Shown: piece after piece, positions 3,967-54,863 of the stretch
How positions within the stretch are numbered: the first letter of the stretch is position 1
Layout of the letters: each line of letters begins with the position of its first letter
Assembly (NCBI RefSeq): GCF_000619905.2
Contig: NZ_CP012371.1
Location: 1,612,001 to 1,676,000, forward strand
DNA: 64,000 nucleotides
Direction of reading: 5' to 3'
DNA from: Nitrosospira briensis C-128
GTDB taxonomy: Bacteria; Pseudomonadota; Gammaproteobacteria; Burkholderiales; Nitrosomonadaceae
Program-made: the position numbers and the translations under genes
Notes under the pieces: model-generated
Told to the model about the DNA's origin: nothing
The model's database searches: none
The model's input: the letters and a program-made list of their open reading frames with translations, nothing else

Positions 3967-4170
3967 GGATAGTCTCGGGCTAACAGAAGAATACGGAAAG
4001 AAATCCGATTATATAGGGTTACATCAGGGCTAAAAAGCAGCGTCGCCGCCGCCCTGGCATCGTATGGAAGAAAATGAAGAAAGGCGATCACATATGCATC
4101 GCTACCAGCGGTGCAAAGCTCAAGAATTTTACTCGATCTGTCATTCCTTTACTTGCGCGGCCGATTCAAC

Positions 4171-6594: not shown

Positions 6595-6643
6595 GCCTAA
6601 TCGTTGCCAGTCTTCAGACTATGCAAAATCGCCTCATCAATTT

Positions 6644-8098: not shown

Positions 8099-8115
8099 CT
8101 CAATTATAAACTCGG

Positions 8116-9081: not shown

Positions 9082-9290
9082 TTGAAGTCCTGCCGGTTAT
9101 CTCAGTTATACTTTTAGGCTCGCCAGCCTCGCTGGTGTCACTCGCGGATTTTTTCGCGGGCAGAGAAGTTTCGCTAGTGTAAACTTTCTTGCGATCCGGA
9201 TGCCGAATACGGGAGCGTATTTCGAACGCATGCTCATGTTTTTTAGCTAGCGTAGGTGTGCATCCAACATTCTTACTATTGGAAATAAAC

Positions 9291-9319
9291 GTTGGGGTTC
9301 CTTCGTCACCCCAACCTAC
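9291..9319 (-). repeat. REP-like element, GTAG plus palindrome (variant 1)
   Basis: Read on the minus strand it is GTAG followed by GTTGGGGT, a 9-base loop and ACCCCAAC: an 8-bp perfect stem behind the GTAG head that RAYT transposases recognise in REP elements. The stem sequence differs from that of the other three copies in the window. Confidence 0.6.
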
Positions 9320-9376
9320 GAGATAATTTTTTAGGGCGCGTCATTGCTGCATACGGATAGGCGTGGGTAACCGAAT

Positions 9377-9407
9377 GATGGGTTATGCTTCGATTCACAC
9401 ATCCTAC
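9377..9407 (-). repeat. REP-like element, GTAG plus palindrome (variant 2, degenerate)
   Basis: On the minus strand this is GTAG, then GATGTGTG and a complementary arm ending AACCCATC. It is a diverged copy of the elements at 38094 and 44618, with one stem mismatch. Confidence 0.55.
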
Positions 9408-9526
9408 ATGCAGGGTTTGTCGTTGCCGAGCTTGAATATCAGACGCCGCATTCCAAATGCGCGCGCTCATTTTTTAGCGTCGAAATAAAAAAGAATATTG
9501 CCATTTGATAATTACAAGGAAATGGA

Positions 9527-9694
9527 ATGATCGAATTTCAACTAGGCAGGCGTAATCGCTGCATTTTTACCTATGTTAATACAAAAGTCGCTCAACACAG
9601 TATAAGCGTACTCGCTTGCGTGGCGACCATGCGCGAAAAAAAACGTAATGGTGCCATGAGTGCTGGTCTTGAACTGCCGGGGGCGCTGGCATGA
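9527..9694 (+). CDS. Possible 55-residue upstream ORF, coupled to rubredoxin reductase
   Basis: An ATG at 9527 lies six bases after AAGGA and opens a 55-residue frame. Its stop codon overlaps the ATG of the reductase gene as ATGA, a classic translational-coupling arrangement. The product (starting MIEFQLGRRNRC, ending GLELPGALA) resembles nothing I recognise; it is not a rubredoxin, lacking the two CxxC knuckles. It may be a leader peptide whose translation opens the downstream start, or a chance frame. Confidence 0.35.
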   Translation: MIEFQLGRRNRCIFTYVNTKVAQHSISVLACVATMREKKRNGAMSAGLELPGALA

Positions 9695-12023: not shown

Positions 12024-12411
12024 GTCCGATCTCCTCTTGTGTTTATTAACTATTTATATTGATGACAGTTTTATCCGGCAATCGGCTCACGAATGCAGGA
12101 ATGTATCCTCTTCAAACTCATTTTCGATTCTTTCAATCTTTACTGACTTTGGTACCCCCTGACTATTGGACTAAAGTACAACCAGCAGTGCATGAGTAAT
12201 CAGAGCCGTCCATCTCGATTACCTATTCGCAATAACGCAGATCGGCTTCATCCGTTTACGTCGAATATTTATTTGTGAATTTTTTGTGAAGTTTATGTAA
12301 CTATACGACAACCGATTGCCTATTGATGCGTTATATCGATTAACGGCAATAAATTGCCTTGGCTGTGGTTCTTTATCAACTGTGATCCTCATCGAGGAAA
12401 TGGAGACTTTC
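12024..12411. other. Divergent intergenic region between His-rich genes
   Basis: This region separates the divergently transcribed His-rich genes and should hold both promoters. It is AT-rich around 12240-12310 (runs such as TTTGTGAATTTTTTGTGAAG). I see no gene, RNA or clear operator. Confidence 0.45.
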
Positions 12412-12756
12412 ATGACAAAAATAAAACTTGCCTGCATCGCTCTTATCATGCTTGGGATGGCCCCCGCCAGTTCAGTTTGGGCGGGAAGAGGCCATGGCCA
12501 CGGTCACAATAACCACGGCCACCACCGCAATCATCACGGCCATAATCACCATCACAACCATGGAGGGGGTAATGGAGGATATGGACTCGCAATAGGGATG
12601 GGATTGTTAGGTTATGGCCTGGGCTATCTGAGTAATAGAGCACCCTCCTATCCACCCCAATATGGCTATCCATCCGCTGGCTACGCACCGGGTTATGGAT
12701 ATGCTCCCGTTATCGTTCCTCCCGCACCGCCGGTTTATATCCAGCAGAGATGGTGA
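12412..12756 (+). CDS. Secreted His-rich protein, tandem copy 1
   Basis: The 114-residue product has a signal peptide ending near 'SSVWA'. A His cluster ('GHGHGHNNHGHHRNHHGHNH') is followed by a glycine-rich hydrophobic segment 'YGLAIGMGLLGYGLGYL' and a Tyr/Pro-rich tail. I chose ATG 12412 because GGAG at 12402 is well placed; a further upstream open start at 12316 has no ribosome site and would bury the signal peptide. It is a paralogue of the next gene, sharing the order signal peptide, His block, GLLGYGLGY and 'PPAPxVYIQQ'. Metal binding is a guess from composition. Confidence 0.75.
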   Translation: MTKIKLACIALIMLGMAPASSVWAGRGHGHGHNNHGHHRNHHGHNHHHNHGGGNGGYGLAIGMGLLGYGLGYLSNRAPSYPPQYGYPSAGYAPGYGYAPVIVPPAPPVYIQQRW

Positions 12757-12814
12757 TAAAGAGCGCTCGCTGTCGTTGATCAAACACAAACACTACTGGG
12801 GTATGGAGACGTAA

Positions 12815-13291
12815 ATGGGAAAAATGAAATTGATGTGCGCGGCACTTATGCTGCTCGGGTCGGTTCCATTAGCATCGGCGGGCAGAGGGCATGGTCACCA
12901 TGGCCATCACAATCACGGGCACCACCATCACCGCCATGGAGGAGGATATGGATTGGCGTTAGGAATGGGATTATTGGGCTATGGCCTGGGCTACTATGGT
13001 AACAGGGCGCCTTATTATCCACCTTCGTATGGCTACGGAAACCAATATAGCTATCCTCCTGTCGGGTACGCGCCTAATTACGGATATGCGCAGCCTTATG
13101 GGTATGCCCCGACCGTTGTGGCTCCCCCCGCTCCATCCGTTTACATTCAACAGCAGGAGGTCGTGCAGGTCCAACCACAGGCTCAAGCTGCCAACTATTG
13201 GCACTATTGCCGTGACCCGGAAGGGTATTATCCCTACGTGAAAAAATGCCCGGACGGGTGGCTGCAGGTCGCGCCCGAGCCCAGCCAATAA
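12815..13291 (+). CDS. Secreted His-rich protein, tandem copy 2
   Basis: This 158-residue paralogue of the previous gene begins 59 bases after it. It has a signal peptide (cleaved near 'PLASA'), the His block 'GRGHGHHGHHNHGHHHHRHG', the segment 'YGLALGMGLLGYGLGYYGN' and a Tyr/Pro-rich region. It carries an extra C-terminal module 'NYWHYCRDPEGYYPYVKKC' plus 'PDGWLQVAP', a motif common at the end of small exported proteins of proteobacteria. The first copy lacks this module. The pair likely arose by tandem duplication; envelope location and metal binding are inferred. Confidence 0.8.
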   Translation: MGKMKLMCAALMLLGSVPLASAGRGHGHHGHHNHGHHHHRHGGGYGLALGMGLLGYGLGYYGNRAPYYPPSYGYGNQYSYPPVGYAPNYGYAQPYGYAPTVVAPPAPSVYIQQQEVVQVQPQAQAANYWHYCRDPEGYYPYVKKCPDGWLQVAPEPSQ

Positions 13292-13432
13292 AACCTTAAT
13301 CCAGCAGTTGATCGCTTTTCGGCTCATTTGCCAACTAAGCGCTATGATGGAAAAGGATTTTTCATACTCCGTGAGCCTCACCTTTTTGGTGAGCTCGCTA
13401 CGAGGCGGATTTAAGTTAAAGGTACTGCCAAG

Positions 13433-14014
13433 ATGCGCAAAATACCTGGATTATTCGCTCTGCTCGTCACATTCGTGCTCGTCGGTTGTACGAGCATCCC
13501 GACAGGGCCCAGCCTGATGGCGTTGCCAGGCTCCGGCAGAAGCTTCGAGCAATTTCGCTACGACGATTACTATTGCAGGGAATTCGCTAATGAACAAGTC
13601 GGTGGCATGGATCCGAATCAGGCATCGATATCCAGTGGAGCAGGCAGCGCCGCGATAGGAGCGGCGCTAGGGGCAGCGGCAGGCGCGGCCTTGGGCGGCG
13701 GACGCGGCGCAGCTATCGGGGCCGGCACCGGTCTGGTGGCTGGAGGCCTGGCTGGAACGCGTACCGCCGGGGCCTCGGGATACGCCAGCCAACAGCGCTA
13801 CGACAATGGCTACATACAATGCATGTATGGAAAAGGCCATCGCGTCCCCGTACAGGGCCAGGTCACCAATGACCCATATACAAATGGCGGCAGCCAATAC
13901 ATGGATACACCTTACCCATCTTATCCCCCGGCCAGAAGCATACGGCGGAGTTCGGTAGTTCCGCCTCCTCCGCCACCGCCTCCGGGCATCCCTCCGCCGC
14001 CGCCCCCGCGCTAA
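13433..14014 (+). CDS. Glycine-zipper lipoprotein with polyproline tail
   Basis: A 193-residue lipoprotein: the signal peptide ends in the lipobox 'LVGC' and mature Cys. A domain with 'FRYDDYYCREFANEQVGG' follows, then a glycine zipper ('GAALGAAAGAALGGGRGAAI') and 'YDNGYIQCMYGKGHRVPV'. The C-terminus is almost pure proline ('PPPPPPPPGIPPPPPPR'). It resembles surface-antigen-type glycine-zipper lipoproteins and shares motifs with the gene at 10929. It may span the periplasm with the Pro tail; no function is known. Confidence 0.8.
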   Translation: MRKIPGLFALLVTFVLVGCTSIPTGPSLMALPGSGRSFEQFRYDDYYCREFANEQVGGMDPNQASISSGAGSAAIGAALGAAAGAALGGGRGAAIGAGTGLVAGGLAGTRTAGASGYASQQRYDNGYIQCMYGKGHRVPVQGQVTNDPYTNGGSQYMDTPYPSYPPARSIRRSSVVPPPPPPPPGIPPPPPPR

Positions 14015-14105
14015 AGCTGCATTACCCTGGATCAGGGGAAGCTGAACGGGTTTTGCAACACCCCATTTTCCCGGCAAACCGCCGGGAATTTGCTTTAATG
14101 AGGGT

Positions 14106-14810
14106 ATGAAACGCCGCTTCGCTTTTGGCGCACTCCTGTTTTGCTGCTGTGTTTTCCCGTCCCAAGGCGGGGAATTCGAAGGATCGCGCCATAAAATGAT
14201 GGAGGAGGTGCTGGCCACATCCGGCAATTTTCCTCCGAGTTCCAGTGTCATGGCGGCAATGGAAAAAGTGCAGCGCCATCGATTCGTGTCTGCCTGGCTA
14301 ACTCCTTTTGCCTATCTCAATCGCCCTCTCCCCATCGGCTACGGCCAGACGATTTCGCAGCCCCTCATCGTCGCACGCATGACCGATCTGCTGAAAGTCA
14401 AGAAGGATGACAAAGTACTGGAGATCGGCACCGGCTCAGGCTATCAGGCGGCTGTTCTTGCGGAAATAGCCGGCTCGGTTTACACCATTGAAATCATAGA
14501 ACCGCTGGGAAAACAAGCGGGCGAGCGGTTGAAATCCCTTGGCTACGACAACATAAAAACAAAAGTGGGCGACGGTTACTACGGCTGGCCGGAAGCGGCA
14601 CCGTTCGACGCAATTATGGTGACGGCTGCCGCAAGCCATGTGCCACCCCCTCTGCTCAAGCAGCTAAAACCGGGCGGACGCATGGTGATCCCGCTCGGTA
14701 CGCATTTTATGACCCAATATTTGATGCTGGTGGAGAAACAGGCGGACGGCTCGGTGACGACCCACCAAATCGTGCCGGTCAGTTTCGTTCCGCTTGTCGG
14801 CGGACATTAG
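14106..14810 (+). CDS. pcm: Exported protein-L-isoaspartate O-methyltransferase
   Basis: PIMT methylates L-isoaspartyl residues in damaged proteins with S-adenosylmethionine. The 234-residue protein has the family motifs 'RHRFVSAW', 'PIGYGQTISQPLIVARMTDL', SAM motif I 'VLEIGTGSGYQAAVLAEIA', 'VGDGYYGWPEAAPFDAIMVT' and 'LKPGGRMVIPLG'. It starts with a signal-like peptide ('FAFGALLFCCCVFPSQGG'), so an exported form is likely, unlike cytosolic E. coli Pcm. The next gene starts two bases after its stop codon, so the two are translationally linked. Confidence 0.93.
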   Translation: MKRRFAFGALLFCCCVFPSQGGEFEGSRHKMMEEVLATSGNFPPSSSVMAAMEKVQRHRFVSAWLTPFAYLNRPLPIGYGQTISQPLIVARMTDLLKVKKDDKVLEIGTGSGYQAAVLAEIAGSVYTIEIIEPLGKQAGERLKSLGYDNIKTKVGDGYYGWPEAAPFDAIMVTAAASHVPPPLLKQLKPGGRMVIPLGTHFMTQYLMLVEKQADGSVTTHQIVPVSFVPLVGGH

Positions 14811-14812
14811 CC

Positions 14813-17236
14813 GTGAATGCGCCACGCCCACCATTTGTTGCCATCGGGCTGCTCTCTGCTTGTGTGCTGGCGTATGAAGTGTTGCTGACGCGCCTGTTCA
14901 GCATCGTGCTGTGGCATCACTTCGCCTATATGATCATCAGCGCGGCAATGCTGGGCTATGGGGCGAGCGGAACGGCGCTAACGTTGCTGAAGAAAAAAAT
15001 CATTCCACACGTTGGAACAGTCTATGTCATGGCTGCCGCAGGGATGGCTTTTCTGATGCCTGCAGCGTTTCTGCTGACGCAACAGGTTCCGTTCAATCCG
15101 CTTGAACTGCTGTGGGATAAAACACAGCTAGCCAAGCTGCTCGCCATTTATCTGCTGATGATGCTGCCCTTCTTTTGTGGAGGGTTGGGTATCGGCCTCG
15201 TCTTGTGGCACTTCGGCAAGGAAGCAGGCCGCATCTATGCCTTTGATATCCTGGGCGCGGGGGTGGGCAGCCTGGGCGTTATCGGCGTGCTGTTTCTCGT
15301 TCCACCGAACAAGGTGCTCATCGTCCTCACGGTGCTGGCCCTGCTGGCTGCCGCTGTCGCCATCATCGAGCTGAAAGTGCGGCCGAAATGGCTGGCGGGC
15401 GTGTTTGCAGGGCTGGCCTCCCTGGTGGTTGTAGCGCTGCCCGGCGACTGGTTGCAAGTGCACATTTCGCCCTACAAGGACCTGAGCCAGACATTGAATA
15501 TTGCCGGAGCAAAGGTGATCGAACAACGTTCCAGCCCGCTGGGACAGATCACGGTAGTGGAAAACACCCGTATCCCCTTCCGCCATGCGCCGGGGATGAG
15601 TCTCAACGCAACGGACGAGCCACCGCCCCAGTTGGGCGTGTTCGTGGATGGAGAAGGGCCGTCCGTGTTGACACGGTTTGATGGCAACCTGGCACCGCTG
15701 GCCTACCTCGACCAGTTTACGTCAGCACTGCCTTACCATGTGCTGGCACAGCCGCATGTACGGCCACGGGTACTAGTGCTGGGCGCAGGCGCCGGCAGCG
15801 ACGTGTTGCAGGCGCTCTACTTCCGCGCAGCGTCTGTCGATGCAGTAGAACTCGATCGCAACGTCATCGATTTGGTTCGGCAACGCTTCCATGACTTTGC
15901 CGGTGACCTTTATGCCCAGCCTGGGGTACACGTGCACGAAGGCGAAGCGCGCGGCTTCGCCAACGCCAGCCGGGAGCACTACGACCTTGTGCAGGTGGCG
16001 TTGCTGGATTCATTTGGTGTCGCCTCGGCAGGACTTTACGGCCTGAGCGAAAGCTATATCTACACGGTGGAGGCACTTCAGACCTACCTGAACCGCCTCA
16101 GACCCGGCGGCATATTGGCGGTTACGCGCTGGCTGACCTTGCCGCCGCGCGATGCGCTGAAGCTGTTTGCCACAGCAACGCTCGCTTTGGAGCGGAACGG
16201 CGTGCCCGATCCTGGCAAGCGACTGGTGATGATACGCGGCTGGAAAACCGTTACCTTGCTGGTAAAAAACAGCGATTTCACAGCGAGTGAAATCGTGGTG
16301 ATCAAGGAATTCAGCCGCAAGCGCTCTTTCGACGTAGCCTACTATCCGGGAATGCACACCGACGAGGCAAACCGTTACAACATTTTGGTGCAACCCTATT
16401 TCTTCGAGGGCGCTGTCGCACTGCTCGGTCCGCAGCGGCAGAACTTCATAGACCGATACAAATTCTATATCGAACCGGCAACTGATGACCGGCCTTTTTT
16501 TTTCCATTTCTTCAAGTGGGAAGCTGCCGCTGAATTATTCGCTTTGCGCGAGCAGGGCGGCATGCCGCTTCTCGACTGGAGTTATCCGCTTCTGGTGGCG
16601 GCTCTGGTACAGGCATTTGTCGTCAGCGTTCTGCTGATCCTGGCGCCGCTGGCGATATCGCGATGCAGGCATACATTGCCCAACGGGCGGGTAGCCCTGT
16701 ACTTCCTCGCCATCGGCCTGGCTTTCATGTTCATCGAGATCGCCTTCATCCAGAAATTTGTGCTGTTCCTGGCTCATCCGCTATATGCCGTGGCGGTCGT
16801 GCTGTGCGCGTTCCTGGTTTTTGCGGCAGTAGGAAGCTGGCTTGCCGGACGGTGGCAGAAGCAGGTGACGGGCACCAGCCATCTGATCGTGGCTGTAATG
16901 GTCATGGCCGCGTTATCGCTACTCTATCTCGCTATCCTGCCGGGCCTGTTCCAGGCGCTCATCCATTTGCCGGACATGGCGAAGATAGCGATTTCAGTGT
17001 TGCTGATCGCGCCCCTGGCGGTATGCATGGGAATGCCTTTTCCCACGGGTATGATGCGGCTGGCGTCCATTGCCCAAAATGCTATTCCGTGGGCGTGGGC
17101 GATCAATGGTTTTGCCTCGGTGGTCGGGGCCGTCCTCGCTACGTTGTTGGCCATTCACCTTGGTTTTGCCGTGGTGATTCTGTTGGCTGTCGTGATCTAC
17201 GGCCTGGCCGCTGTTGCGCTGCGGGGGTTTGCTTGA
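14813..17236 (+). CDS. Membrane-embedded spermidine-synthase-like methyltransferase-fold protein
   Basis: An 807-residue polytopic protein starting at GTG 14813. About six membrane segments come first (residues 8-220). A soluble Rossmann-type domain follows, with 'RVLVLGAGAGSDVLQALYF', acidic 'VDAVELDRNVIDLV' and 'YDLVQVALLDSFGVASAGLY', as in spermidine synthases. About seven more membrane segments end the protein. Related multi-pass proteins are annotated 'spermidine synthase' without proof. Here the spermidine-synthase Asp is replaced in the 'ALLDSFG' region, so the substrate is open. Tight coupling to exported PIMT suggests an envelope role. Confidence 0.8.
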   Translation: MNAPRPPFVAIGLLSACVLAYEVLLTRLFSIVLWHHFAYMIISAAMLGYGASGTALTLLKKKIIPHVGTVYVMAAAGMAFLMPAAFLLTQQVPFNPLELLWDKTQLAKLLAIYLLMMLPFFCGGLGIGLVLWHFGKEAGRIYAFDILGAGVGSLGVIGVLFLVPPNKVLIVLTVLALLAAAVAIIELKVRPKWLAGVFAGLASLVVVALPGDWLQVHISPYKDLSQTLNIAGAKVIEQRSSPLGQITVVENTRIPFRHAPGMSLNATDEPPPQLGVFVDGEGPSVLTRFDGNLAPLAYLDQFTSALPYHVLAQPHVRPRVLVLGAGAGSDVLQALYFRAASVDAVELDRNVIDLVRQRFHDFAGDLYAQPGVHVHEGEARGFANASREHYDLVQVALLDSFGVASAGLYGLSESYIYTVEALQTYLNRLRPGGILAVTRWLTLPPRDALKLFATATLALERNGVPDPGKRLVMIRGWKTVTLLVKNSDFTASEIVVIKEFSRKRSFDVAYYPGMHTDEANRYNILVQPYFFEGAVALLGPQRQNFIDRYKFYIEPATDDRPFFFHFFKWEAAAELFALREQGGMPLLDWSYPLLVAALVQAFVVSVLLILAPLAISRCRHTLPNGRVALYFLAIGLAFMFIEIAFIQKFVLFLAHPLYAVAVVLCAFLVFAAVGSWLAGRWQKQVTGTSHLIVAVMVMAALSLLYLAILPGLFQALIHLPDMAKIAISVLLIAPLAVCMGMPFPTGMMRLASIAQNAIPWAWAINGFASVVGAVLATLLAIHLGFAVVILLAVVIYGLAAVALRGFA

Positions 17237-17406
17237 GCGAGCGATTCATCCCTTTGAGCGAGATCCGGGAGACACAGTTGAGCAGGGTAGGGGATATTGG
17301 GTTGTTATGAACCCTGCTCAGCCTGGAAGGCTAAGCAGGGCAGGGTGAAGGAAACTATCTTTTGTTATCTCGAAATCGGAAGCTCGAATACGTGCTGATT
17401 TATAAG
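17237..17406. other. Intergenic segment with stem-loop
   Basis: After the membrane protein gene there is an imperfect 12-bp stem-loop (arms 17312-17323 and 17329-17340, one mismatch, loop TGGAA). It lacks a U-tract and is at best a weak terminator. The tRNA-like fragment begins just to its right. Confidence 0.4.
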
Positions 17407-17450
17407 TGGATCATGAGCGGTTCGAACGCTCGACCCGCGAATCAAGATTT
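17398..17450 (-). pseudogene. 3' half of a decayed tRNA-Lys
   Basis: Read on the minus strand this matches the 3' half of the intact tRNA-Lys at 26644-26719, from the anticodon loop through the T arm to the acceptor end. The core TGAGCGGTTCGAACGCTCGA is identical. Most of the other differences are transitions, and TTTAT beyond the CCA end is also shared. The 5' half is absent, so it cannot be a functional tRNA. The orientation matches the intact gene 9.3 kb to the right, as expected for the attachment-site duplicate of an old tRNA-integrated element. Confidence 0.75.
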
Positions 17451-17585
17451 CTCAGTGAATAAGATGCAATATCACAACAGAACCAGCAATGCCTTCACAG
17501 CGTTAACCGGTTATCACTATCGCAAGTTGTCGTGTGTTTTTTCCGGTCATTTCTTTGCCAATACGACAGATGCCCTGCGAGAGAA

Positions 17586-18407
17586 TTAGCGTGATTTGAT
17601 GTTCCCATTTTCGTCCGAAATAACGACGTCTACCCGACGATTCAATTGTCGGCCTGCCTGGGTGTTGTTACTGGCGACTGGAAAGCTTTTCCCATAACCG
17701 CGCGTTGTGATGCGAGTGGAATCAATGCCCATATTCATCAAGGTATCGCGGACCGCATTGGCGCGCCGTTCAGAAAGCTGCTGATTATAGTTCTCGCTCC
17801 CTGTGCTGTCTGTGAACCCCTCAATAGCAACGTTGCGTTGGGGATTCTGTTTGAGAACGTCAGCAAGTTTTTGCAACTCTCGAACGCCACCCGATTTGAG
17901 CTCCGCATGATTAGTATCGAACAGCACATCGCCGAGAGTAATGACCGTACCCCGGTCTGATTTTTTTGCATTCAGTTCTTTGAGCTGCGATTCAAGTGTG
18001 CTTGCCCGCATTTCGGCACTCTGTGCCTGCTGCTGAGCCTTTTCCGCCTCTTCTGTTCTCGCAGAAAGGCGAATTTTATTGCGCTCGGCATCGGCGGCGG
18101 ACACATCTGCTTCAGCAGCTTTGCGCTTTGCGGTTTCCTGCGCTATTGAAACTTGCTGTTGTGCCAGATAAGCCAGATGATCCACTTTGGCAGCATCTTT
18201 TCCTTTCTTCCAGGCGTTGTCGGCTTGTGCCAACGTGTCGCCTGCCTGCTTCAGTTCCAAAGGCGCGAGATTGGTAACTTCAGGGTCGCTCTGGGCACTG
18301 CGATAGCTGCTACGAGCGCTATCCAGAAGTGCGTTTGGTGTCGAGCCGCAACCCGCCAGCGCTGCGATAACCATAAACGAGATGGTTAAATAGCCATTTT
18401 TCTTCAT
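17586..18407 (-). CDS. OmpA-family lipoprotein with DUF4398 region
   Basis: A 273-residue lipoprotein: the signal peptide ends in lipobox 'LAGC'. Residues 25-150 form a DUF4398-type helical region with a long Ala/Glu/Gln coiled coil. The C-terminal 110 residues are an OmpA peptidoglycan-binding domain ('LFDTNHAELKSGG', 'IEGFTDSTGSENYNQQLSER', 'ITTRGYGKSFPVASN'). It should tether the outer membrane to peptidoglycan. The next gene in the same direction upstream (18429) is a smaller DUF4398 lipoprotein 21 bases away, so the two probably work together. Confidence 0.88.
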   Translation of the reverse strand: MKKNGYLTISFMVIAALAGCGSTPNALLDSARSSYRSAQSDPEVTNLAPLELKQAGDTLAQADNAWKKGKDAAKVDHLAYLAQQQVSIAQETAKRKAAEADVSAADAERNKIRLSARTEEAEKAQQQAQSAEMRASTLESQLKELNAKKSDRGTVITLGDVLFDTNHAELKSGGVRELQKLADVLKQNPQRNVAIEGFTDSTGSENYNQQLSERRANAVRDTLMNMGIDSTRITTRGYGKSFPVASNNTQAGRQLNRRVDVVISDENGNIKSR

Positions 18408-18428
18408 GAGCGTATCTCCTCCAGGTAA

Positions 18429-18818
18429 TTACTTTAATTTGCGGTTCATTTCGTTTTGTAGTGTTTGATCGCTTTCCTTCAATGCGTCTGCTGCTTGCTG
18501 TGCTTTCGCCGCACGCGCTTTAGCGCTCGCTAGTTGCGCATTTGTTTGCGCGTTTTCACCTAACCTTATGGCACGTTTGTAGTCATCGTCCATCGCTGCC
18601 TTTTCTGCATCCTCCAGGTTTTCCTGGGCAGTTTTCAATTCCACCGGAGCAAATTCCGGCGCCCCGGCGCTTACCGCGTCGGCAACCGCAGTTTTCGCAA
18701 CTGCAAGCTGAGCCGCCGTATCTCTCTTTTCCGTGGTTGCGCAACCTGCTGCGAATACAGCGGCAAGAACTATTACGCTCATCATTTGATACCATTTATA
18801 TTTCGAAAAGTCTTTCAT
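18429..18818 (-). CDS. DUF4398 lipoprotein
   Basis: A 129-residue lipoprotein of the DUF4398 type: the signal peptide has lipobox 'FAAGC', and Ala/Glu-rich helices follow ('LAVAKTAVADAVSAGAPEFA', 'ENLEDAEKAAMDDDYKRAI'). I chose the ATG at 18818, with GGGGAGG about 6 bases upstream; a TTG five codons earlier would overlap that ribosome site. It precedes the OmpA-DUF4398 lipoprotein and probably forms a two-gene operon with it. Confidence 0.82.
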   Translation of the reverse strand: MKDFSKYKWYQMMSVIVLAAVFAAGCATTEKRDTAAQLAVAKTAVADAVSAGAPEFAPVELKTAQENLEDAEKAAMDDDYKRAIRLGENAQTNAQLASAKARAAKAQQAADALKESDQTLQNEMNRKLK

Positions 18819-19446
18819 CGCCCACCTCCCCAAAGATCAATAGAATCTAATTAACAGGACTACTGATGAGTTTATGGGGAAAGTTTTAAATAATCGGTCT
18901 GTTAGCGCACGTAAGCGATGGTAGACATCGCATATGAGCCAGATGATTAAATGGACCGGCCAACGTGGTTAGCGAAAACGACCTCTTTCTTCTCCACAAT
19001 TGCTGTGGATAAGTTTGTGGACAACCTCTGGACACGAGGGGTAAGTCATCTTTCTGTAACGTTATTTACTCAGCTGACCTTTTTTTAAACTAAAAAAATG
19101 CGATAGCATTATCAGGCACTTAGATGGAAAGCCAGCGCTCATGCCACTTTCCACGGAGTTATGGTGGGCATTTGTGTGGATTGCGTTACAGATGTGGATT
19201 ACTGCCAAATGTCAATAGTCTTTGTTGATAGTACTTTCGGATTTCTGTAGATATTGGAGCAAACCGGAATTCAAGTTTGTGCTAACGCAAGCTGGTCTGT
19301 GAGCGGCAGCGGGTTCGAATATAATTGATACGCGTGGCGTTACAAGATGGGAATATGGCTAACATTCAGGCTATCCGGGCCTCTGCGACTGCCAGAATCA
19401 TGCGACACGTGCGGGCCAAGATGTGGGAATTTGGGGCGTACTCTTC
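18819..19446. other. Gene-free region with DnaA-box-like cluster
   Basis: No gene is visible in these 628 bases. They hold a perfect DnaA box (TTATCCACA on the minus strand at 19004-19012), a near match 12 bases away (19016-19024, TTGTCCACA) and two further near matches at 19175-19183 and 19193-19201. An AT-rich stretch (19078-19105) lies between them. CCACA-ATTGC-TGTGG around 18994-19008 forms an inverted repeat. The meaning is unknown. Confidence 0.5.
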
Positions 19447-48411: not shown

Positions 48412-48770
48412 ACCAGCCAGGGTGTATCAAGCCACTCTCAATCACATGGATCAATATGGCGCAACTTGGCGAGCCCATTCGATTCCACCTTTGTCATTCA
48501 GATGGTTTTGTCGAGTTACGCCGGCTACCCTGAAAAAACCAGATCTATTGAATCCGACGTACCTCTGCTTTGCGGCGTAAAATATTTTTTATCAAACGGC
48601 TTGACAGCGATAATTCCGTATACTAATTTTAAACATGCTGGAAGAAACAAACCGGGGAGAAGCCTGTGTTCATCCCGCAGGACAAACATCGCAGTCTCAA
48701 TCCAGCCTGATATTACATTCCCCAATTCCCTTGAGTTATCGCTGCTACTTTCCATAAAAAGGAGTTAATA
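48412..48770. other. Intergenic region upstream of the repeat-peptide gene
   Basis: This stretch holds the promoter candidate at 48601-48629 and a strong ribosome site (AAAAGGAG, 48757-48764) ahead of the repeat-protein gene. No gene is credible on either strand. Confidence 0.6.
48601..48629 (+). promoter_or_regulatory. Sigma-70-type promoter candidate for the modification cluster
   Basis: A perfect -35 box TTGACA (48601-48606) is followed after 17 bases by TAATTT (48624-48629) as a weak -10. Transcription would start near 48636, leaving a leader of about 135 bases before the ATG at 48771. Confidence 0.5.
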
Positions 48771-49502
48771 ATGTCTGATGAGCAGAAACCGGAGGATTCT
48801 CCAGCACCCGTTCCGGAAATTGATCCACAGGCAGCGAGAGCGCCGCAGCCTCGTTCACTGGCTGCAAATGCCAGACTGGCCGATCTTACGATCGGCGATC
48901 TGACTTCCATTATTGCGGCTGAGACCAACAAAGCCATCGCATCCCGCTTGGGCAATCTCGGCAATATAGGCGCTGCCGGCAGTCATGTGAATTCCGGTCC
49001 GCCGGGATTTGTCAACGGTGGTGGCCATGCCAATTTCGACCCAGCCAGAGGCATCGGCAATCGCGTGAATGTCGGCGATCTCGGCAGGGCAGGTGTCCAT
49101 GTGAACTCCGGCCCGCCGGGATTCGTCAACGGCGGCGGTCATGCCAATTTCGACCCAGCCAGAGGCATCGGCAATCGCGTGAATGTCGGTGATCTCGGCA
49201 GGGCAGGTGTCCATGTGAACTCCGGCCCGCCGGGATTCGTCAATGGCGGGGGACATGCCAATTTCGATCCGGCCAGAGGCATCGGCAATCGCGTGAATGT
49301 AGGCGATCTTGCCAGGGCCGGCTCGCATGTGAATTCCGGCCCTCCGGGATTCGTCAATGGCGGGGGGCATGCCAATTTCGATCCCAGGGTTAACGTGGGC
49401 GCCGGGCTCATCAACGTCACCTTGCCGGACGGAGGCCAGGTCGCCATTCCGGCTGCCGGCCCGGTGGATTTGCACGTACGCGGCTTCCACATTACACGTT
49501 AG
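48771..49502 (+). CDS. Repeat-bearing putative RiPP precursor or modified substrate protein
   Basis: A 243-residue protein with no signal peptide. Residues 1-68 are a leader-like region: an acidic, Pro-rich start and a helix 'LADLTIGDLTSIIAAETNKA'. Four 38-residue repeats follow, the first three nearly identical and the fourth shortened, with invariant core 'HVNSGPPGFVNGGGHANFDP' beginning at His72, 110, 148 and 186. The rest of each unit is 'ARGIGNRVNVGDLGR'. A unique tail 'PVDLHVRGFHITR' ends the protein. It has the strongest ribosome site of the cluster and five probable processing genes downstream. I infer a precursor whose His/Asn/Asp/Phe residues are modified; a structural substrate is the alternative. 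Confidence 0.75.
   Translation: MSDEQKPEDSPAPVPEIDPQAARAPQPRSLAANARLADLTIGDLTSIIAAETNKAIASRLGNLGNIGAAGSHVNSGPPGFVNGGGHANFDPARGIGNRVNVGDLGRAGVHVNSGPPGFVNGGGHANFDPARGIGNRVNVGDLGRAGVHVNSGPPGFVNGGGHANFDPARGIGNRVNVGDLARAGSHVNSGPPGFVNGGGHANFDPRVNVGAGLINVTLPDGGQVAIPAAGPVDLHVRGFHITR
48975..49400 (+). repeat. Four tandem 114-bp coding repeats
   Basis: The codon for the first His of each unit lies at 48984, 49098, 49212 and 49326, an exact 114-base period in frame. Differences between units are mainly synonymous third-position changes, while the amino acids are held constant apart from two positions (Ser/Val before the first His and Gly/Ala near the end). Confidence 0.95.
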
Positions 49503-49533
49503 CCAACCCGGCCGATGAATCATATGCCGCTCC

Positions 49534-50646
49534 ATGTTGGTTGAGGGGGCGACCTGGTCAGGTCGTGCCGCCCGATCGCTTCGCGCTTTTGTCGAAGCGG
49601 CCTGCCAGGATGAAAAGTTGCGCCGGTTACTCGAAATTGATCCTGCGACAGCGCTGCGCGAGTGGCAGTGGGAATCCGATGTCGTGCCGGCGTCGCTGCC
49701 TCCGCCTATGGGCGCGGTATCGGTCTGTATCGATGACGCGAGCCTGTTGGGTCCGATAGCGTGGCGAACCGAGACGGATAAAGCACTGTTGCGGCAAACG
49801 CAGCTGCGCCTTTTACTTGCGGGCGCCAAGCCTCTGGCCCTGATCCATGGCAGCGAGCAAAGCCTGACCGCCTTGGCAGCCTGGATGCGGGCCCGCGGTT
49901 ACTACACGCTGCTTGGTCCGCACGAATTCCTGCCGCAACACGATTCATGCAAGGGTGGCTACAGTAATCGCATGACAAAGGTAACCAGCGCACGGGCCGG
50001 TTCCGGCGCATGGCGTGGATTGCTGGTTGCTCCCGACGAACAAACCGTGCTGATGGCATGGCTATGTCAGCTGTTTGGATGGGAAAGCTTCCTGGGAAGA
50101 CTGCTCGGTTATCCGTCCTGCTGCTGCAAAGCGTTCGAAGACCGCTGGCCAATCGCTGCTTCGAACCACGAAGGGGACGTAGGCCTCATGCTGCTGGAGG
50201 AATCGGAAGCGGCGCCGACGGTGCATAATCTGAGTTGGACCACAAACATTTTTTCGCGCTATTTTGGGTGGGAAATTATTCAGCATTTTCCCTGCCGGCT
50301 GGATTGTCCCGCCACGACAAATCTGGCCCGGCGCTATTTCGCGGTACTTACACACTATTGGCCGGCGGAAGCGCAGGAGATACTGGGATATTTGGCATCT
50401 CCCCTGCTGGTGATCCCCAATCACGGCTACAGCCTTTTTCGCGGCGGATGCGTGATACGTGAGAACAACGGCACAAGCCTGATCTATGATCCCGAACAGG
50501 TCCGGATTATCGGTATGGACAGTATGTTTACCGATGAAATCGTATCTTCGTCCCGATTGACGGCGGGTATGAACGGGGGCTGGAAAATTGCCGGTGGCGA
50601 CGTTCCAGGCTGGCTGCTGGATGTCAGCCTCGATGAGGCTGTTTAG
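49534..50646 (+). CDS. Unknown protein with CCC motif, DUF483-like pattern
   Basis: A 370-residue cytosolic protein with two parts. Residues 1-150 show nothing recognisable. Residues 165-300 hold 'LLGYPSCCCKAFEDRW' (Cys196-198) and 'HFPCRLDCPATTNLAR' (Cys254, Cys258), the order 'GxPxCC...F' then 'PCxxxC' seen in the poorly known DUF483 family. It lies 31 bases after the repeat protein and 12 before the radical SAM gene. The cysteines could hold a metal or cluster, or accept a peptide. A role in processing the repeats is inferred from position only. Confidence 0.65.
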   Translation: MLVEGATWSGRAARSLRAFVEAACQDEKLRRLLEIDPATALREWQWESDVVPASLPPPMGAVSVCIDDASLLGPIAWRTETDKALLRQTQLRLLLAGAKPLALIHGSEQSLTALAAWMRARGYYTLLGPHEFLPQHDSCKGGYSNRMTKVTSARAGSGAWRGLLVAPDEQTVLMAWLCQLFGWESFLGRLLGYPSCCCKAFEDRWPIAASNHEGDVGLMLLEESEAAPTVHNLSWTTNIFSRYFGWEIIQHFPCRLDCPATTNLARRYFAVLTHYWPAEAQEILGYLASPLLVIPNHGYSLFRGGCVIRENNGTSLIYDPEQVRIIGMDSMFTDEIVSSSRLTAGMNGGWKIAGGDVPGWLLDVSLDEAV

Positions 50647-50658
50647 GAGAATCGCGAT

Positions 50659-52242
50659 ATGAAATATTTCAGCAGGCCCTACAGGGAAAGTGCCGAAAGT
50701 ACCTATTTGGCGGAGGCTCACAGCAAGCACTACGAACCTTTCGGTACGATCAGCTTAAGCGATCAAACCGTGCTGGGCACGGAAGGCATTGTCCTGGAGG
50801 ATATCGCGGGCGAGACGCTTGCCATTCACCCCGAGAATGCGGCGTGGGCATTTCTCAGTGCCGGCGAGTCAAAGTGGTTTCGGCAACTGGATAAAAAGCC
50901 CTTTGGCTGGTTACGCCATAATCTATCGCAATACGGTCCGGATAATGCACTCGATTTTGCCGCCCAACTCTATCGGCGCGGTCTGCTGACGCTTAATGGA
51001 CATGCTGCCGTGGACCGGCGGATGTTCGCGGACGGGCCCAATTACGACGAGGGAAACCTGATCGAGCTGCTCATTACCGAGAAATGCAATCTTGCCTGTC
51101 CCTACTGCCTGGCGGGAGCCAACTCATCCATGCCGGCCATGGATCGGGATATTGCCCGAAAGACTGTGGATCTTGCATTTGCCATGCGCGAGAGCGACAC
51201 GCTGGCTTTCGAGTTTGCCGGGGGTGAGCCGTTCCTGAAATATGAGCTCATGAAGGAAACCGTGACATACATTCGTAATCATCCATTACGAGGCAACCGC
51301 AGGCTATTTCTCAGCACGCAAACCAATGCCACCTTACTGAATGAGGAACGGGTCCGCTGGCTGAAGGAGGAGGATATCCGGGTAGGAATTTCTCTCGATG
51401 GAGGCGCACAACAGCAGAATTCGAGCCGCCCTCAGGTCAACGGCAAGGAGTCCTTCAGCAAGATTGCCAGAGGAATCGACCTGCTGCACCGGTTCGAGGT
51501 ACCCTTTGGTGGCCTGGTGGTGCTGAACCGGTCCAATGCGGAAGACCCGGCGGCCTTGGCCGCCACCATGCTCAATCTCGGCATCCATGGCTTTCGGCTG
51601 AATCCCGTGGCCTATCTGGGCGATGCGCGAAAGAACTGGAACAAGGTTGGTTTGAGCCAGGATCAGATTATTGATTTTGTCAAAGACCTGATGAGCCACG
51701 TAGTGGCGCAAAAATTGCCATTGCTGGAGGACAACGTCCGCAGCATGTGCGACTTTCTCACCAGTAAACAGCGTAGAACGCGCTGCATGCGAACCCACTG
51801 CGGAGCGGGGGAAACTTTCCAGGCCGTTGCCGCCAATGGTGATATCTATCCCTGCGGCCGTGCCACGCAATCACCCGGGCTCAAGCTGGGAAACATTTTC
51901 GATGCCGGCCTGGAAAGCCTATCACAACCGTCCCGGCATAATGCCGTCATACAGCAAATTCGCGAACGCCGCCCCACTGATCTCGAAGGGTGCGACACCT
52001 GCTCCTATCGGCAGCTATGTCAGTCCGGGTGTTCCGCGCAGGCCTGGGAGCGTTATGGCACGGTCCGCCACCGTACCCCCGAATGCTCCTTTTACAAAAC
52101 GCTTTATCCCTATTTGATGCGCTGGCTGTCCTTCGATGAAATCGCGTTCGATCACCTGAACACTTACAATTATTTCAATAACGAGGGTAAACGCTTTTCC
52201 CGCGACTTTGCCCCCATAAAATACCATGCGGTAGCAGTGTGA
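50659..52242 (+). CDS. SPASM-domain radical SAM peptide maturase
   Basis: A 527-residue radical SAM enzyme. Residues 1-125 look like a PqqD-type peptide-recognition domain ('FGWLRHNLSQYGPDNALDFA'). The [4Fe-4S] motif C-x3-C-x2-C is 'KCNLACPYC' (Cys143, 147, 150), followed by 'EFAGGEPFLKYE' and 'VGISLDGG'. The C-terminal SPASM domain has Cys in 'CGAGETFQAVAANGDIYPCG' and the C-x2-C-x5-C-x3-C array 'CDTCSYRQLCQSGC'. SPASM enzymes install thioether, C-C or C-N links or epimers in RiPPs. Ribosome site GGAG precedes it; its stop overlaps the next start (GTGA). Confidence 0.92.
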   Translation: MKYFSRPYRESAESTYLAEAHSKHYEPFGTISLSDQTVLGTEGIVLEDIAGETLAIHPENAAWAFLSAGESKWFRQLDKKPFGWLRHNLSQYGPDNALDFAAQLYRRGLLTLNGHAAVDRRMFADGPNYDEGNLIELLITEKCNLACPYCLAGANSSMPAMDRDIARKTVDLAFAMRESDTLAFEFAGGEPFLKYELMKETVTYIRNHPLRGNRRLFLSTQTNATLLNEERVRWLKEEDIRVGISLDGGAQQQNSSRPQVNGKESFSKIARGIDLLHRFEVPFGGLVVLNRSNAEDPAALAATMLNLGIHGFRLNPVAYLGDARKNWNKVGLSQDQIIDFVKDLMSHVVAQKLPLLEDNVRSMCDFLTSKQRRTRCMRTHCGAGETFQAVAANGDIYPCGRATQSPGLKLGNIFDAGLESLSQPSRHNAVIQQIRERRPTDLEGCDTCSYRQLCQSGCSAQAWERYGTVRHRTPECSFYKTLYPYLMRWLSFDEIAFDHLNTYNYFNNEGKRFSRDFAPIKYHAVAV

Positions 52243-53474
52243 AGCTCAACGACGCCGGTCTAAAGGAAGGACTGCCGAAACATGTACTGACGGACTGTGC
52301 GGGCCTGTGTTACCCGGCCGGGCCCGGCGAAACCGTTGACATATTGCTCGGATTCTCCACGCTGGCCCGTTCGGTACGCTTACGGAACCAGCTCTCCGTA
52401 GCGATGGACACAATGGACGCGAACGAGCACCCGCTCGCGCAGCGTCTTATCGCGACCCTTGACAACCTGCCTGCCGATGCCCGCGCCCGGCTGTTTTCCA
52501 CTCCACTGGCGGAAATAGACACCGCCCCGAGGGCGGAACCGGACGACGCCGGTAATCCCGGCGCGGGAAAGATATTGTCCGGGGTGCGGCATTTCATTCA
52601 CCATCCCGACGTACGCAACATCACCTTTATTCTGCCCCGTTGTCTCTTCTCGACGGGTCCGCTGTATCTGCCGCATGTCCATGCTGTGCTGTCCAATGAT
52701 GCGCCAGGCGTCACACTGGCGGTGGTGGAAAATGACGGTAAAACCCATTTCGTCTGGAGTGATGGATTGAGTCTGACGCTTGTCAATGACGGAAGCGGAT
52801 TACCAGCGGGTTTCAGTCATCCCCGCCTCGCGGCCCTGCCGTCTATTGGAGGTTTTCCCGTGCTTAATGGAGTCGCCGAAGTCACTCCCCTGCTATCCTC
52901 TTTCGAACCCGCAACGGATGATGAGATTGACGTGGGAGCCGGGCGCATCGAAGCAGCGCTGGAACTGCTTAACCAGATCTGGCCGCTCGCCTTCCATGCC
53001 CTCCATCGCCACGTCAAGGCATTGTGTATTCTGAAACAACGCGGGTACTCGCGCAGCCACAGCCCGCCGGAGCTGCCGGGAACAATATTCATGAGTGCCG
53101 ATGACGTCGAGCATATCGGCGATTTGTTGTGCCATGAATCGAGCCATATCAGGATGAATATTTTCCGGCGCTACGATGCGATTGCCCGTGCGCGCGATCC
53201 AGACTCGGAAGCCATCGGTTTCGTCTCCCCCTGGCGGCCGGATTTACGTCCACTGCGGGGACTGGTGGATGGCGTACATGCTTTTCTCAATGTTTGCCGC
53301 TATTATCGTCGGTTGGAGATGCGATTTCCCGATGCATGGACCGCCGGCACGATTTATGAGCGACAAAAACGGAATGTGATTCAGGCAGGCATTACGTTGC
53401 GCGAGCACGCTGTGCCGACGCAGATCGGCGCCCTCCTGCTGGAAGAATTTGCCCGCGAGGAAGGCTTGCTGTGA
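52239..53474 (+). CDS. HExxH-motif putative peptide beta-hydroxylase
   Basis: A 411-residue protein starting at GTG 52239, four bases into the radical SAM stop. The key signature is HESSH (His299-Glu300, His303) in 'HIGDLLCHESSHIRMNIFRR', followed by 'PWRPDLRPLRGLVDGVHAFL'. This is the arrangement of the HEXXH-motif proteins that recur beside SPASM radical SAM enzymes and are described as 2-oxoglutarate-dependent peptide beta-hydroxylases rather than proteases. The N-terminal 200 residues probably bind the substrate. Function on the repeats is inferred. A metalloprotease remains the alternative. Confidence 0.78.
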   Translation: MKLNDAGLKEGLPKHVLTDCAGLCYPAGPGETVDILLGFSTLARSVRLRNQLSVAMDTMDANEHPLAQRLIATLDNLPADARARLFSTPLAEIDTAPRAEPDDAGNPGAGKILSGVRHFIHHPDVRNITFILPRCLFSTGPLYLPHVHAVLSNDAPGVTLAVVENDGKTHFVWSDGLSLTLVNDGSGLPAGFSHPRLAALPSIGGFPVLNGVAEVTPLLSSFEPATDDEIDVGAGRIEAALELLNQIWPLAFHALHRHVKALCILKQRGYSRSHSPPELPGTIFMSADDVEHIGDLLCHESSHIRMNIFRRYDAIARARDPDSEAIGFVSPWRPDLRPLRGLVDGVHAFLNVCRYYRRLEMRFPDAWTAGTIYERQKRNVIQAGITLREHAVPTQIGALLLEEFAREEGLL

Positions 53475-54130
53475 ATACTCTCACTCCCGACTGCATGATC
53501 GATACCGGCACGGGTTTGAATATCGACCCTTCGTCGCTTGCCCGGCTGCGTATGGAATTCCTTGATCGTGGCGCGGCCGTATTGGGCCCACCCGCTCTCA
53601 ACCATGATACGCATATGAATCTTCTCGGCGAGGCGCTTGCGCAACGGCGGGATGCCAGCTGGAGCCTGGTTGCGAAGCAGTGTCCTGGAGAAATCTCCCA
53701 GCATAATGTACGCGCGCATCTCGGACCGCACGCACGGAGCTTTCTCTCGTCGGCATCTGTACTGGCCTATCTGGAGCGTGTCACCGGCCATCGGCTTGCT
53801 CCGTCCTGGAGTGCCAGTTGCTATACCTATTACGATGAGCCAGGTCAACACATGGGCGAGCACTGCGACAAAAAGGAAGCCTGTCGCATTGCTCTGCTGA
53901 TCTACCTTCAGACCCTCTGGATGCCCGGTGTCCAACCGTCGACGGGGCTTCAACTACACGTCTTTCGCGGCGACAATGCAGCAAGCGGGTTACTGCTACG
54001 CATCACCGGGTTGTCCAACCGGATTGTTTTCCTGAACGGCGCGGAGCAGGCGCACCTGCGGCCCGCTCTGGCTGCGGGGGAACATATGACGATGCTGGCG
54101 GGCTGCTACCGGCTAGCAACCCCGGAATAA
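53471..54130 (+). CDS. 2OG-Fe(II) oxygenase-like protein
   Basis: A 219-residue protein starting at GTG 53471 within the previous stop (GTGA overlap). A cupin-type iron site is visible: H-x-D as His131 and Asp133 in 'GQHMGEHCDKKEACRIALLI' and a distal His195 in 'GAEQAHLRPALAAGEHM'. The Arg that normally sits ten residues after the distal His to hold 2-oxoglutarate is His205 here; Arg197 or Arg214 might replace it. It would be a second candidate hydroxylase in the cluster. The fold assignment is good, the cosubstrate uncertain. Confidence 0.72.
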   Translation: MNTLTPDCMIDTGTGLNIDPSSLARLRMEFLDRGAAVLGPPALNHDTHMNLLGEALAQRRDASWSLVAKQCPGEISQHNVRAHLGPHARSFLSSASVLAYLERVTGHRLAPSWSASCYTYYDEPGQHMGEHCDKKEACRIALLIYLQTLWMPGVQPSTGLQLHVFRGDNAASGLLLRITGLSNRIVFLNGAEQAHLRPALAAGEHMTMLAGCYRLATPE

Positions 54131-54152
54131 CCCACAAGACAACCTTAACGCC

Positions 54153-54728
54153 ATGCAATGGAATGATTGGCCTCCAAGCGATCCTGCGCTTATGCCAGGT
54201 TACGAAGCGTGGCGAGTTGGAAAGCTCGAGGATGCCCGGTTGTTCTTTCAGGCAAGCGCAGAGAAGCAACCGGACCAGGCTGATGTCTGGCGCGGGTTAG
54301 GTAATGTTGCCTGGTCCCGCAAGGATTTTACGGTCGCGCTTACCCATTTCAGCGCAGCGTTACACCTGGCGCCGTGGAATCCGATGCACTGGGGTAATGT
54401 GGGCTTGGTTCGCCGCGACCTTGGCGAACCGCAAGCCGCGATATCGGCCTTTCGCGTTGCGCTCGGCCTTGATCCGGAATATGCGCCAGCACTCAATGAA
54501 TGGGCAAATGTCTTATTCGATGTGGGTCGCTATGCGGAAGCATTGCCGCTGTATGATGCCTCGCTGGCAATCGACAGTGATCGAGCGGTAATACATCACA
54601 ACAAGGGAGTCTGCTTGCGCTATCTGGGAAGATTGCCGGAAGCAGTATGCTATTTTCGCGCCGCGTTGATACTGGACCCTGGTTACCACTATTCCCTGGA
54701 AGAACTGCAGCGCCTGGGGGAAACATAG
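54153..54728 (+). CDS. TPR-repeat protein of the modification cluster
   Basis: A 191-residue protein made of about five tetratricopeptide repeats ('ADVWRGLGNVAWSRKDFTVA', 'MHWGNVGLVRRDLGEPQAAI', 'APALNEWANVLFDVGRYAEA', 'AVIHHNKGVCLRYLGRLPEA'). No enzyme domain. TPR scaffolds bring partners together, so it may hold the substrate or assemble the tailoring enzymes. It starts 22 bases after the oxygenase gene and is the last intact gene of the run. Confidence 0.85.
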   Translation: MQWNDWPPSDPALMPGYEAWRVGKLEDARLFFQASAEKQPDQADVWRGLGNVAWSRKDFTVALTHFSAALHLAPWNPMHWGNVGLVRRDLGEPQAAISAFRVALGLDPEYAPALNEWANVLFDVGRYAEALPLYDASLAIDSDRAVIHHNKGVCLRYLGRLPEAVCYFRAALILDPGYHYSLEELQRLGET

Positions 54729-54863
54729 GTACCAAACAATAAAACCCGCAAACCGGTAACCGCACTCTACGATGTCGTGATCGTGGGCGGCGGCATTGTC
54801 GGCTTGTACCCAACGCCTGGCGACGGTTGGGGATGGTTAGGGCAAATGCCCGCAGGGGCGTGA
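54729..54863 (+). pseudogene. Startless FAD-oxidoreductase N-terminal fragment
   Basis: In the frame that continues past the TPR stop codon, 54768-54809 encodes YDVVIVGGGIVGLY, the beta-alpha-beta FAD/NAD-binding start of a flavin oxidoreductase, preceded by NNKTRKPVTAL. There is no start codon between the TAG and this motif, and after 'GLY' the family sequence stops and a TGA follows at 54861. It looks like the remaining N-terminus of a deleted oxidoreductase gene. Confidence 0.6.

Follow-up and report, generated by a model that had tools for sequence, protein, structure and literature searches.

An invariant 20-residue peptide unit, encoded four times over in one gene and followed by genes for three different candidate oxidative enzymes, marks a six-gene cassette of Nitrosospira briensis C-128. 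The cassette lies at 48771-54728 of a 64,000-nucleotide stretch of contig NZ_CP012371.1 (positions 1,612,001 to 1,676,000; hereafter the window) and consists of six open reading frames (ORFs) in tandem on the + strand, here called A to F, with gaps of 31, 12, -4, -4 and 22 nucleotides. These coordinates bear out the run as it had been described in the original prediction, which was made from the DNA letters alone. On balance, we read the cassette as a multi-core pathway for a ribosomally synthesised and post-translationally modified peptide (RiPP), in which C would form cyclophanes, D would perform beta-hydroxylation and E a further hydroxylation. Very probably C, D and E act on A: the genes co-occur, their order is conserved and the repeats are invariant.

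What distinguishes A (48771..49502, + strand) from an ordinary repeat protein? Its 243 residues begin with a leader of 71 residues (48771..48983), in which a Pro-rich start is followed by a LADLTIGDLTSIIAAE-type segment; L39, D43, L44 and I47 of the leader are invariant in 7/7 gene sets. Then come four exact copies of the 20-residue core HVNSGPPGFVNGGGHANFDP, at 48984..49043, 49098..49157, 49212..49271 and 49326..49385, with spacers between them, and a C-terminal tail (49386..49499) that aligns across the sets (VTLPDGG..IPA.GP.D...RG). In all six frames of the window, no other stretch comes within 10 mismatches of the core. Every A protein in the eight gene sets described below has four exact cores, so that 32 of 32 are identical in amino acid sequence, the 4/4 of an eighth set (genome G021) included. 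The 28 copies of the other seven sets are spelled by 27 distinct DNA sequences, pairs of which differ on average at 10.4 of 60 nucleotides. Synonymous divergence around an identical peptide indicates that selection acts on the peptide. Mean pairwise identity in the seven sets is 100% for the core, 66.1% for the tail, 56.7% for the spacers and 52.7% for the leader, and the spacers vary in sequence and in length, from 1 to 24 residues. The seven A proteins contain not a single Cys, Trp or Tyr; thioethers of Cys and chemistry at Trp or Tyr are thereby excluded for them, and they stand apart from the thioether RiPPs (sactipeptides and ranthipeptides), defined by Cys in the core. The three Asn residues of the core all stand two positions after His or Phe (HVN, FVN, HAN), the Aro-Xaa-Asn pattern known from three-residue cyclophanes. 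Upstream of A, a TTGACA stands at 48601-48606, and likewise upstream of A in two other loci (L026, L008), with a poor -10 element; our promoter scan did not list it, and the promoter and terminator scan returned fewer sites than the shuffle mean.

The original prediction had proposed that co-occurrence of A with the enzymes be examined across genomes. A search of genome contigs with C led to six loci, in Nitrosovibrio Nv17, a Nitrosospira multiformis metagenome-assembled genome (MAG), a MAG labelled Nitrospira, Nitrosospira 56-18, Paracoccus yeei and Nitrosovibrio tenuis. Together with the window and G021, a genome of the same genus, they give eight gene sets in which the order A to F is kept, a recurrence beyond chance; one of the hosts, Paracoccus yeei, is an alphaproteobacterium. 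Four further loci (L003, L004, L005 and L006) apparently come from the same genomes as L013, L008, L011 and L009, since their match values for E and F coincide, and each pair was counted once. With the starts that we chose, 4-nucleotide overlaps join C to D in 6/7 sets and D to E in 6/7, and A ends 7-33 nucleotides before B in all seven sets measured. Among 101 genomes, the source genome included, A and D each matched seven. One A match, in G037, is due to chance: the protein contains NEGGHANFSP and resembles a glucokinase. One D match, in G080, was set aside as a distant partial HExxH-type stretch (26% identity over residues 237-363). What remains is the same six genomes for A and for D, all among the 23 same-genus genomes listed, of which 17 lack A. 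The expected co-occurrence thus holds after one hit is dropped from each side.

Two wider searches, in overlapping genome sets and with only the first candidates per genome scored, so that misses are possible, found A in one of the 295 Paracoccus-family genomes, namely the starting genome, and in two of 398 genomes sampled across the phylum. The latter are the source genome and a chance match, G680, at a locus with an SDR-like and an AMP-ligase-like ORF. With limits of E <= 0.001 for B and E <= 1e-50 for C, each was found in one of the 398, again the source genome. Among 72,556 records searched, C (64-65% identity) occurs on four plasmids of Paracoccus yeei, and A on the same four. The one plasmid examined carries the full set, annotated only as hypothetical, radical SAM, HEXXH and TPR proteins. 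In Paracoccus, identity is 64% for C, the highest value among the five proteins other than A, 54% for E, 49% for F, 39% for D and 34% for B, and the B of locus L012 has 287 residues versus 370. Phage records yielded no match to A, and PHROGs none to A, B, D or E; eight loci on viral contigs hold radical SAM stretches 22-31% identical to C, within its residues 135-468.

Could A work unmodified, for instance as a metal-binding or scaffold repeat protein, while the enzymes act elsewhere? His-containing repeats could bind metal, the run holds no exporter, and a role of the enzymes on A is predicted from sequence. However, no A separate from the enzymes turned up in the overlapping sets of 101, 295 and 398 genomes, the last two with capped scoring, and repeat proteins of this type spread widely without them, which the original prediction had named as evidence against itself, were not seen there. 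Moreover, A directly precedes B in 7/7 sets, and three oxidative enzymes of peptide-tailoring type are adjacent. We consider an unmodified A very unlikely. The earlier proposal that the three enzymes act on the repeats is strengthened by co-occurrence, gene order and repeat invariance; the modification itself, its sites and its chemistry stay predictions.

The enzymes are of recognisable kinds. C (50659..52242, + strand, 527 residues) is a radical S-adenosylmethionine (SAM) enzyme of the SPASM type, as first described: PF04055 and PF13186 both score above the Pfam cut-offs, the CxxxCxxC motif and the SPASM cysteines are present, and 12 Cys are invariant in 7/7 sets. It matches the radical SAM domain of ChlB with an E-value of 2.5e-15. 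A PqqD-like domain, which had also been attributed to it, was not found. Its N-terminal extension of some 130 residues lacks a Pfam match, and the corresponding fragments of seven C homologues matched no Pfam family at E <= 10. D (52239..53474, + strand, 411 residues, GTG start) contains an HESSH motif invariant in 8/8 sets, and the window copy scores 75.1 bits against TIGR04267 (cut-off 40), which agrees with its earlier description as a putative hydroxylase. A profile of D matches ChlH (8s5f; E 0.0001) and 22nu (E 4.1e-07), with HExxH and PWRxDLRPxxGL in common. By cut-off and by the residues common with ChlH, D belongs to the family of alpha-ketoglutarate (aKG)-dependent HExxH-type peptide beta-hydroxylases, and that activity is predicted for it. 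E (53471..54130, + strand, 219 residues, GTG start) has the HxD...H triad of a 2-oxoglutarate (2OG)-Fe(II) oxygenase (H131-C-D133...H195) invariant in 8/8 sets, as are R184 and R197. Among eight E homologues searched at E <= 1, PF13661 appears in seven (best E 0.0087) and PF13640 in six (best E 0.00038). Compared for the double-stranded beta-helix fold, its predicted model, of low confidence (mean predicted local distance difference test score, pLDDT, 58.6), has 26 matches at E <= 0.001, all of them 2OG enzymes of the HalD/HalA/HalB or BesD-homologue type; PHD2 and bacterial prolyl-4-hydroxylase rank lower than these halogenases and hydroxylases.

How might these proteins act together? We propose that A is the precursor, its four identical 20-residue cores preceded by the N-terminal leader and followed by the conserved tail. 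C would link the aromatic rings of His1, Phe9 and His15 each with the Asn at the second position after it, at the Asn beta-carbon, and one core could carry as many as three three-residue cyclophanes (HVN, FVN, HAN). Cyclophane formation at Aro-Xaa-Asn, followed by beta-hydroxylation by D, is proposed from the Aro-Xaa-Asn motifs, the matches to ChlB and ChlH, and the systems cited here. Strained cyclophane RiPPs are described as having Aro-Xaa-Asn as their motif (PMC9062424). XncB and OscB form Phe-C4 to Asn-Cbeta cyclophanes, and HaaB and YhhB form His-C2 cyclophanes to Ala or Arg (PMC11002830). In the ChlB/ChlH system, the HEXXH enzyme is reported to act once the cyclophane is in place, hydroxylating Asp and His on it (PMC12636437). 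We regard cyclophanes at Aro-Xaa-Asn as the slightly favoured outcome of C. D, using aKG, would beta-hydroxylate His, Asn or Asp of the cyclised core, and hydroxylation of some kind by D is likely. E would introduce another hydroxyl, for which Pro in the collagen-like GPPG of the core is the simplest guess. Hydroxylation by E is plausible and moderately probable, while the particular residues assigned to either enzyme are tentative. B and F would serve as partner or scaffold proteins.

A number of results weigh against this reading, beginning with C. Among the best 25 of 79 NCBIfam matches, C lies under every curated cut-off. Within the same 25 its top score is for PapB, a ranthipeptide maturase (171.9 vs 340 bits); the cyclophane-forming families GrrM/OscB (80.4 vs 310) and AmcB (97.3 vs 425) are far from reached, which leaves C outside the named cyclophane-maturase (3-CyFE) families among these 25, and HxsB of the His-Xaa-Ser system stands at 141.8 vs 370 bits. 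The ChlB domain ranks fourth of 15 solved structures, behind 5wgg and two sulfatase-maturase sequences. No His-to-Asn cyclophane, whether His-Val-Asn or His-Ala-Asn, is described in the available portions of PMC9062424, PMC11002830, PMC12636437 and PMC12257519. Placement of all three Asn two residues after His or Phe is infrequent by chance (4/560 placements; 605/200000 full shuffles), but this test was picked after the sequence had been inspected, and a common Asn offset anywhere from -6 to 6 arises in 5685/200000 shuffles (2.8%). Does C then make something else, such as an epimerised residue, another C-C bond, for example within Val, or a change at a backbone carbon, with D and E hydroxylating afterwards? 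The sub-threshold family scores would be compatible with this. So would TvgB, a radical SAM enzyme whose substrate is a repeat precursor and which works next to an iron/2OG enzyme, converting Val to cyclopropylglycine (PMC9062424), as our core contains V2 and V10. Yet the TVGG motif of TvgA is absent from A, and 3/3 core Asn sit two residues after an aromatic one. A non-cyclophane product of C appears somewhat unlikely to us.

The remaining contrary results concern the precursor, the two hydroxylases and the run as a whole. A is long (208-247 residues in seven sets), its window copy has no Pfam family match, and the cassette's chemistry is a prediction from genes and motifs. In the search with the D profile, the engineered protein 4rzp appears at E 0.00058, which makes the sequence link to ChlH modest. 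The original designation of E as a 2OG-Fe(II) oxygenase-like protein stands on its invariant triad, whereas the Pfam gathering cut-off is missed by the window copy (PF13661, 16.7 vs 27 bits, E 0.011); its model is of low confidence overall (predicted template-modelling score, pTM, 0.65), and the fold matches have TM-scores of at most 0.58 with root-mean-square deviations of about 8-16 A. Lastly, as the original prediction had noted, neither Pfam nor NCBIfam reveals a protease or exporter gene inside 48771-54728, and we found none conserved together with the six-gene set.

The lack of a protease gene raises the question of whether D, or E, itself frees the cores by oxidative cleavage of the backbone, so that the product is four identical modified 20-mers. 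PflC and PosC, which are aKG-HEXXH enzymes, hydroxylate and oxidatively cleave the backbone, and no protease gene lies near the pfl cluster (PMC12636437). The run lacks a protease in the loci compared, and it is the spacers that differ in length and sequence, the cores being constant. Set against this are the absence from A of the PflC/PosC cut site ARMD, one spacer, in L011, that is a single Ser and leaves little room for a spacer-directed cut, and housekeeping proteases, which could do the work instead. Oxidative release is an unlikely route.

Two further proteins complete the cassette. B (49534..50646, + strand, 370 residues) combines GYPSCCC, the CCC motif recognised from the start, with HFPCxxxC. 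Both Cys of GYPxCC are found in 7/7 sets and the third in 6/7; Cys196, 197, 254 and 258 are invariant in 7/7. A distant DUF483-like segment (PF04467) is weakly matched in all seven members (best E 0.0016), the window copy scoring 18.9 bits against a cut-off of 25, and a fold search with the predicted model (pLDDT 64.4) gave no match at E <= 0.001. B is a possible metal-binding partner or scaffold. F (54153..54728, + strand, 191 residues) is a tetratricopeptide repeat (TPR) protein by Pfam, again as described before. We assume both to be partner proteins.

Is the cassette gained and lost as a unit? In G004 and G011, which lack A, a flavin oxidase gene starts 80-175 bases after yifB; G021 has the six genes between yifB and the flavin gene, and in the window they likewise follow yifB, with a remnant of the flavin gene on their other side. 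This remnant (54729-54809) is a short amine-oxidase-like piece with LYDVVIVGGGIVGLY, followed by metH, the rest of the gene being gone. Elsewhere, the flavin gene has a P-type ATPase gene as its neighbour in G006, G003 and G007, all without the cassette, and the six genes stand between the two in L009 and L013; in the cassette-less G020 about 2 kb separate them (L046, 11319-13286). These six cassette-less stretches, a sample of the 17 same-genus genomes without A, show no match to A-F longer than 40 residues. L011 has a different gene upstream of the cassette, and L008 lacks the flavin gene. In the MAG labelled Nitrospira (L010), the cassette has a GC content of 48.2% versus 55.7% around it and lies between insertion-sequence-type transposase genes and a VirB4-type conjugation gene (5448-6622, 13530-19383). 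Gain or loss of the cassette as a whole block fits these arrangements.

The flavin amine-oxidase-like gene follows F directly in L009 (13262-15244), L011 (13215-15173), L013 (13071-15038, overlapping F by 11 nucleotides) and L026 (from 10496). Its product of about 655 residues matches PF01593, with a weak VioA-like score. As a required seventh gene it was rejected: it matched 16 of 41 relatives (E <= 1e-20), of which 4 carry A and 12 do not and which all belong to the same genus, and no match was found in the cassette-bearing window genome and G017. In the cassette-less stretches it lies near yifB or the P-type ATPase gene. Where present, it may be a helper.

On the Paracoccus yeei plasmid (L025), some 4 kb separate the cassette from a quinohemoprotein amine dehydrogenase operon that has a radical SAM maturase of its own; the neighbouring features noted here span 2778-9555 and 12147-13343. 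Subtilisin-annotated and ABC transporter genes occur at least 8 kb upstream, beside the quinohemoprotein amine dehydrogenase genes, and are taken as unrelated to the cassette. Directly before A in L025 is an alpha/beta hydrolase gene; one from a different Pfam family precedes A in L011.

The kinds of enzyme are known; the core, the six-gene set and a product that stays the same in two classes of proteobacteria were absent from the matches listed in the literature searches. The strings HVNSGPPG, FVNGGGH, NSGPPGF and SGPPGFVN were not found in a text search beyond whose reach most subscription journals lie. There is a real chance that this is a new RiPP class. In its full form, with three cyclophanes per 20-mer including new His-to-Asn links, beta-hydroxylation by D, a GPPG hydroxylated by E, a sequence identical in beta- and alphaproteobacteria and a fixed role in metal handling or as a cofactor-like compound, that proposal is a speculative one. 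A fixed core suggests a fixed physiological function, such as metal binding or a cofactor-like role, rather than a diversifying toxin, and a repeat that is letter-identical in a distant bacterium probably reflects a product with a specific function. If correct, one conserved peptide unit would meet three different oxidative metalloenzymes, in a block common to ammonia oxidisers and Paracoccus plasmids. For radical SAM and HExxH enzymes it would be a further substrate, one whose sequence rule is unusually clear, and its invariance would speak for a role that is not antibiotic. With four identical cores, testing by mass spectrometry is simple.

How does the cassette compare with known systems? 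Like the Halomonas tvg cluster (TvgA/B/C), it combines a repeat precursor, a radical SAM enzyme and an iron/2OG enzyme; tvg differs in its TVGG repeats and in having two genes for membrane-associated transporters, and none of the five genes described in the available text of PMC9062424 and PMC11002830 is of the HExxH, TPR or DUF483-like kind. The pfl and pos clusters (PflC, PosC) and biphenomycin (BpmH) likewise place an aKG-HEXXH enzyme in a RiPP cluster, pfl again without a nearby protease. Their precursors are different, and in place of a SPASM enzyme pfl has a multinuclear non-heme iron-dependent oxidase (MNIO)-nitroreductase and bpm an MNIO with a B12-radical SAM enzyme (PMC12636437, PMC12257519). 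With the triceptides (XncB, OscB/GrrM, HaaB, YhhB) the cassette has the Aro-Xaa-Asn core motifs in common, and GrrA/OscA1 weakly matches two of seven A proteins (best E 0.0016), the window copy not among them; it differs by a C far below the GrrM/OscB and AmcB cut-offs and by its invariant 20-residue repeat. ChlB/ChlH, finally, also pairs a radical SAM enzyme with an HExxH hydroxylase, D aligning with ChlH and C matching the radical SAM domain of ChlB. There the form is fused (PMC12636437), whereas here the genes are separate, and the cassette adds a four-repeat precursor of 243 residues, an extra 2OG-like enzyme, and DUF483-like and TPR proteins.

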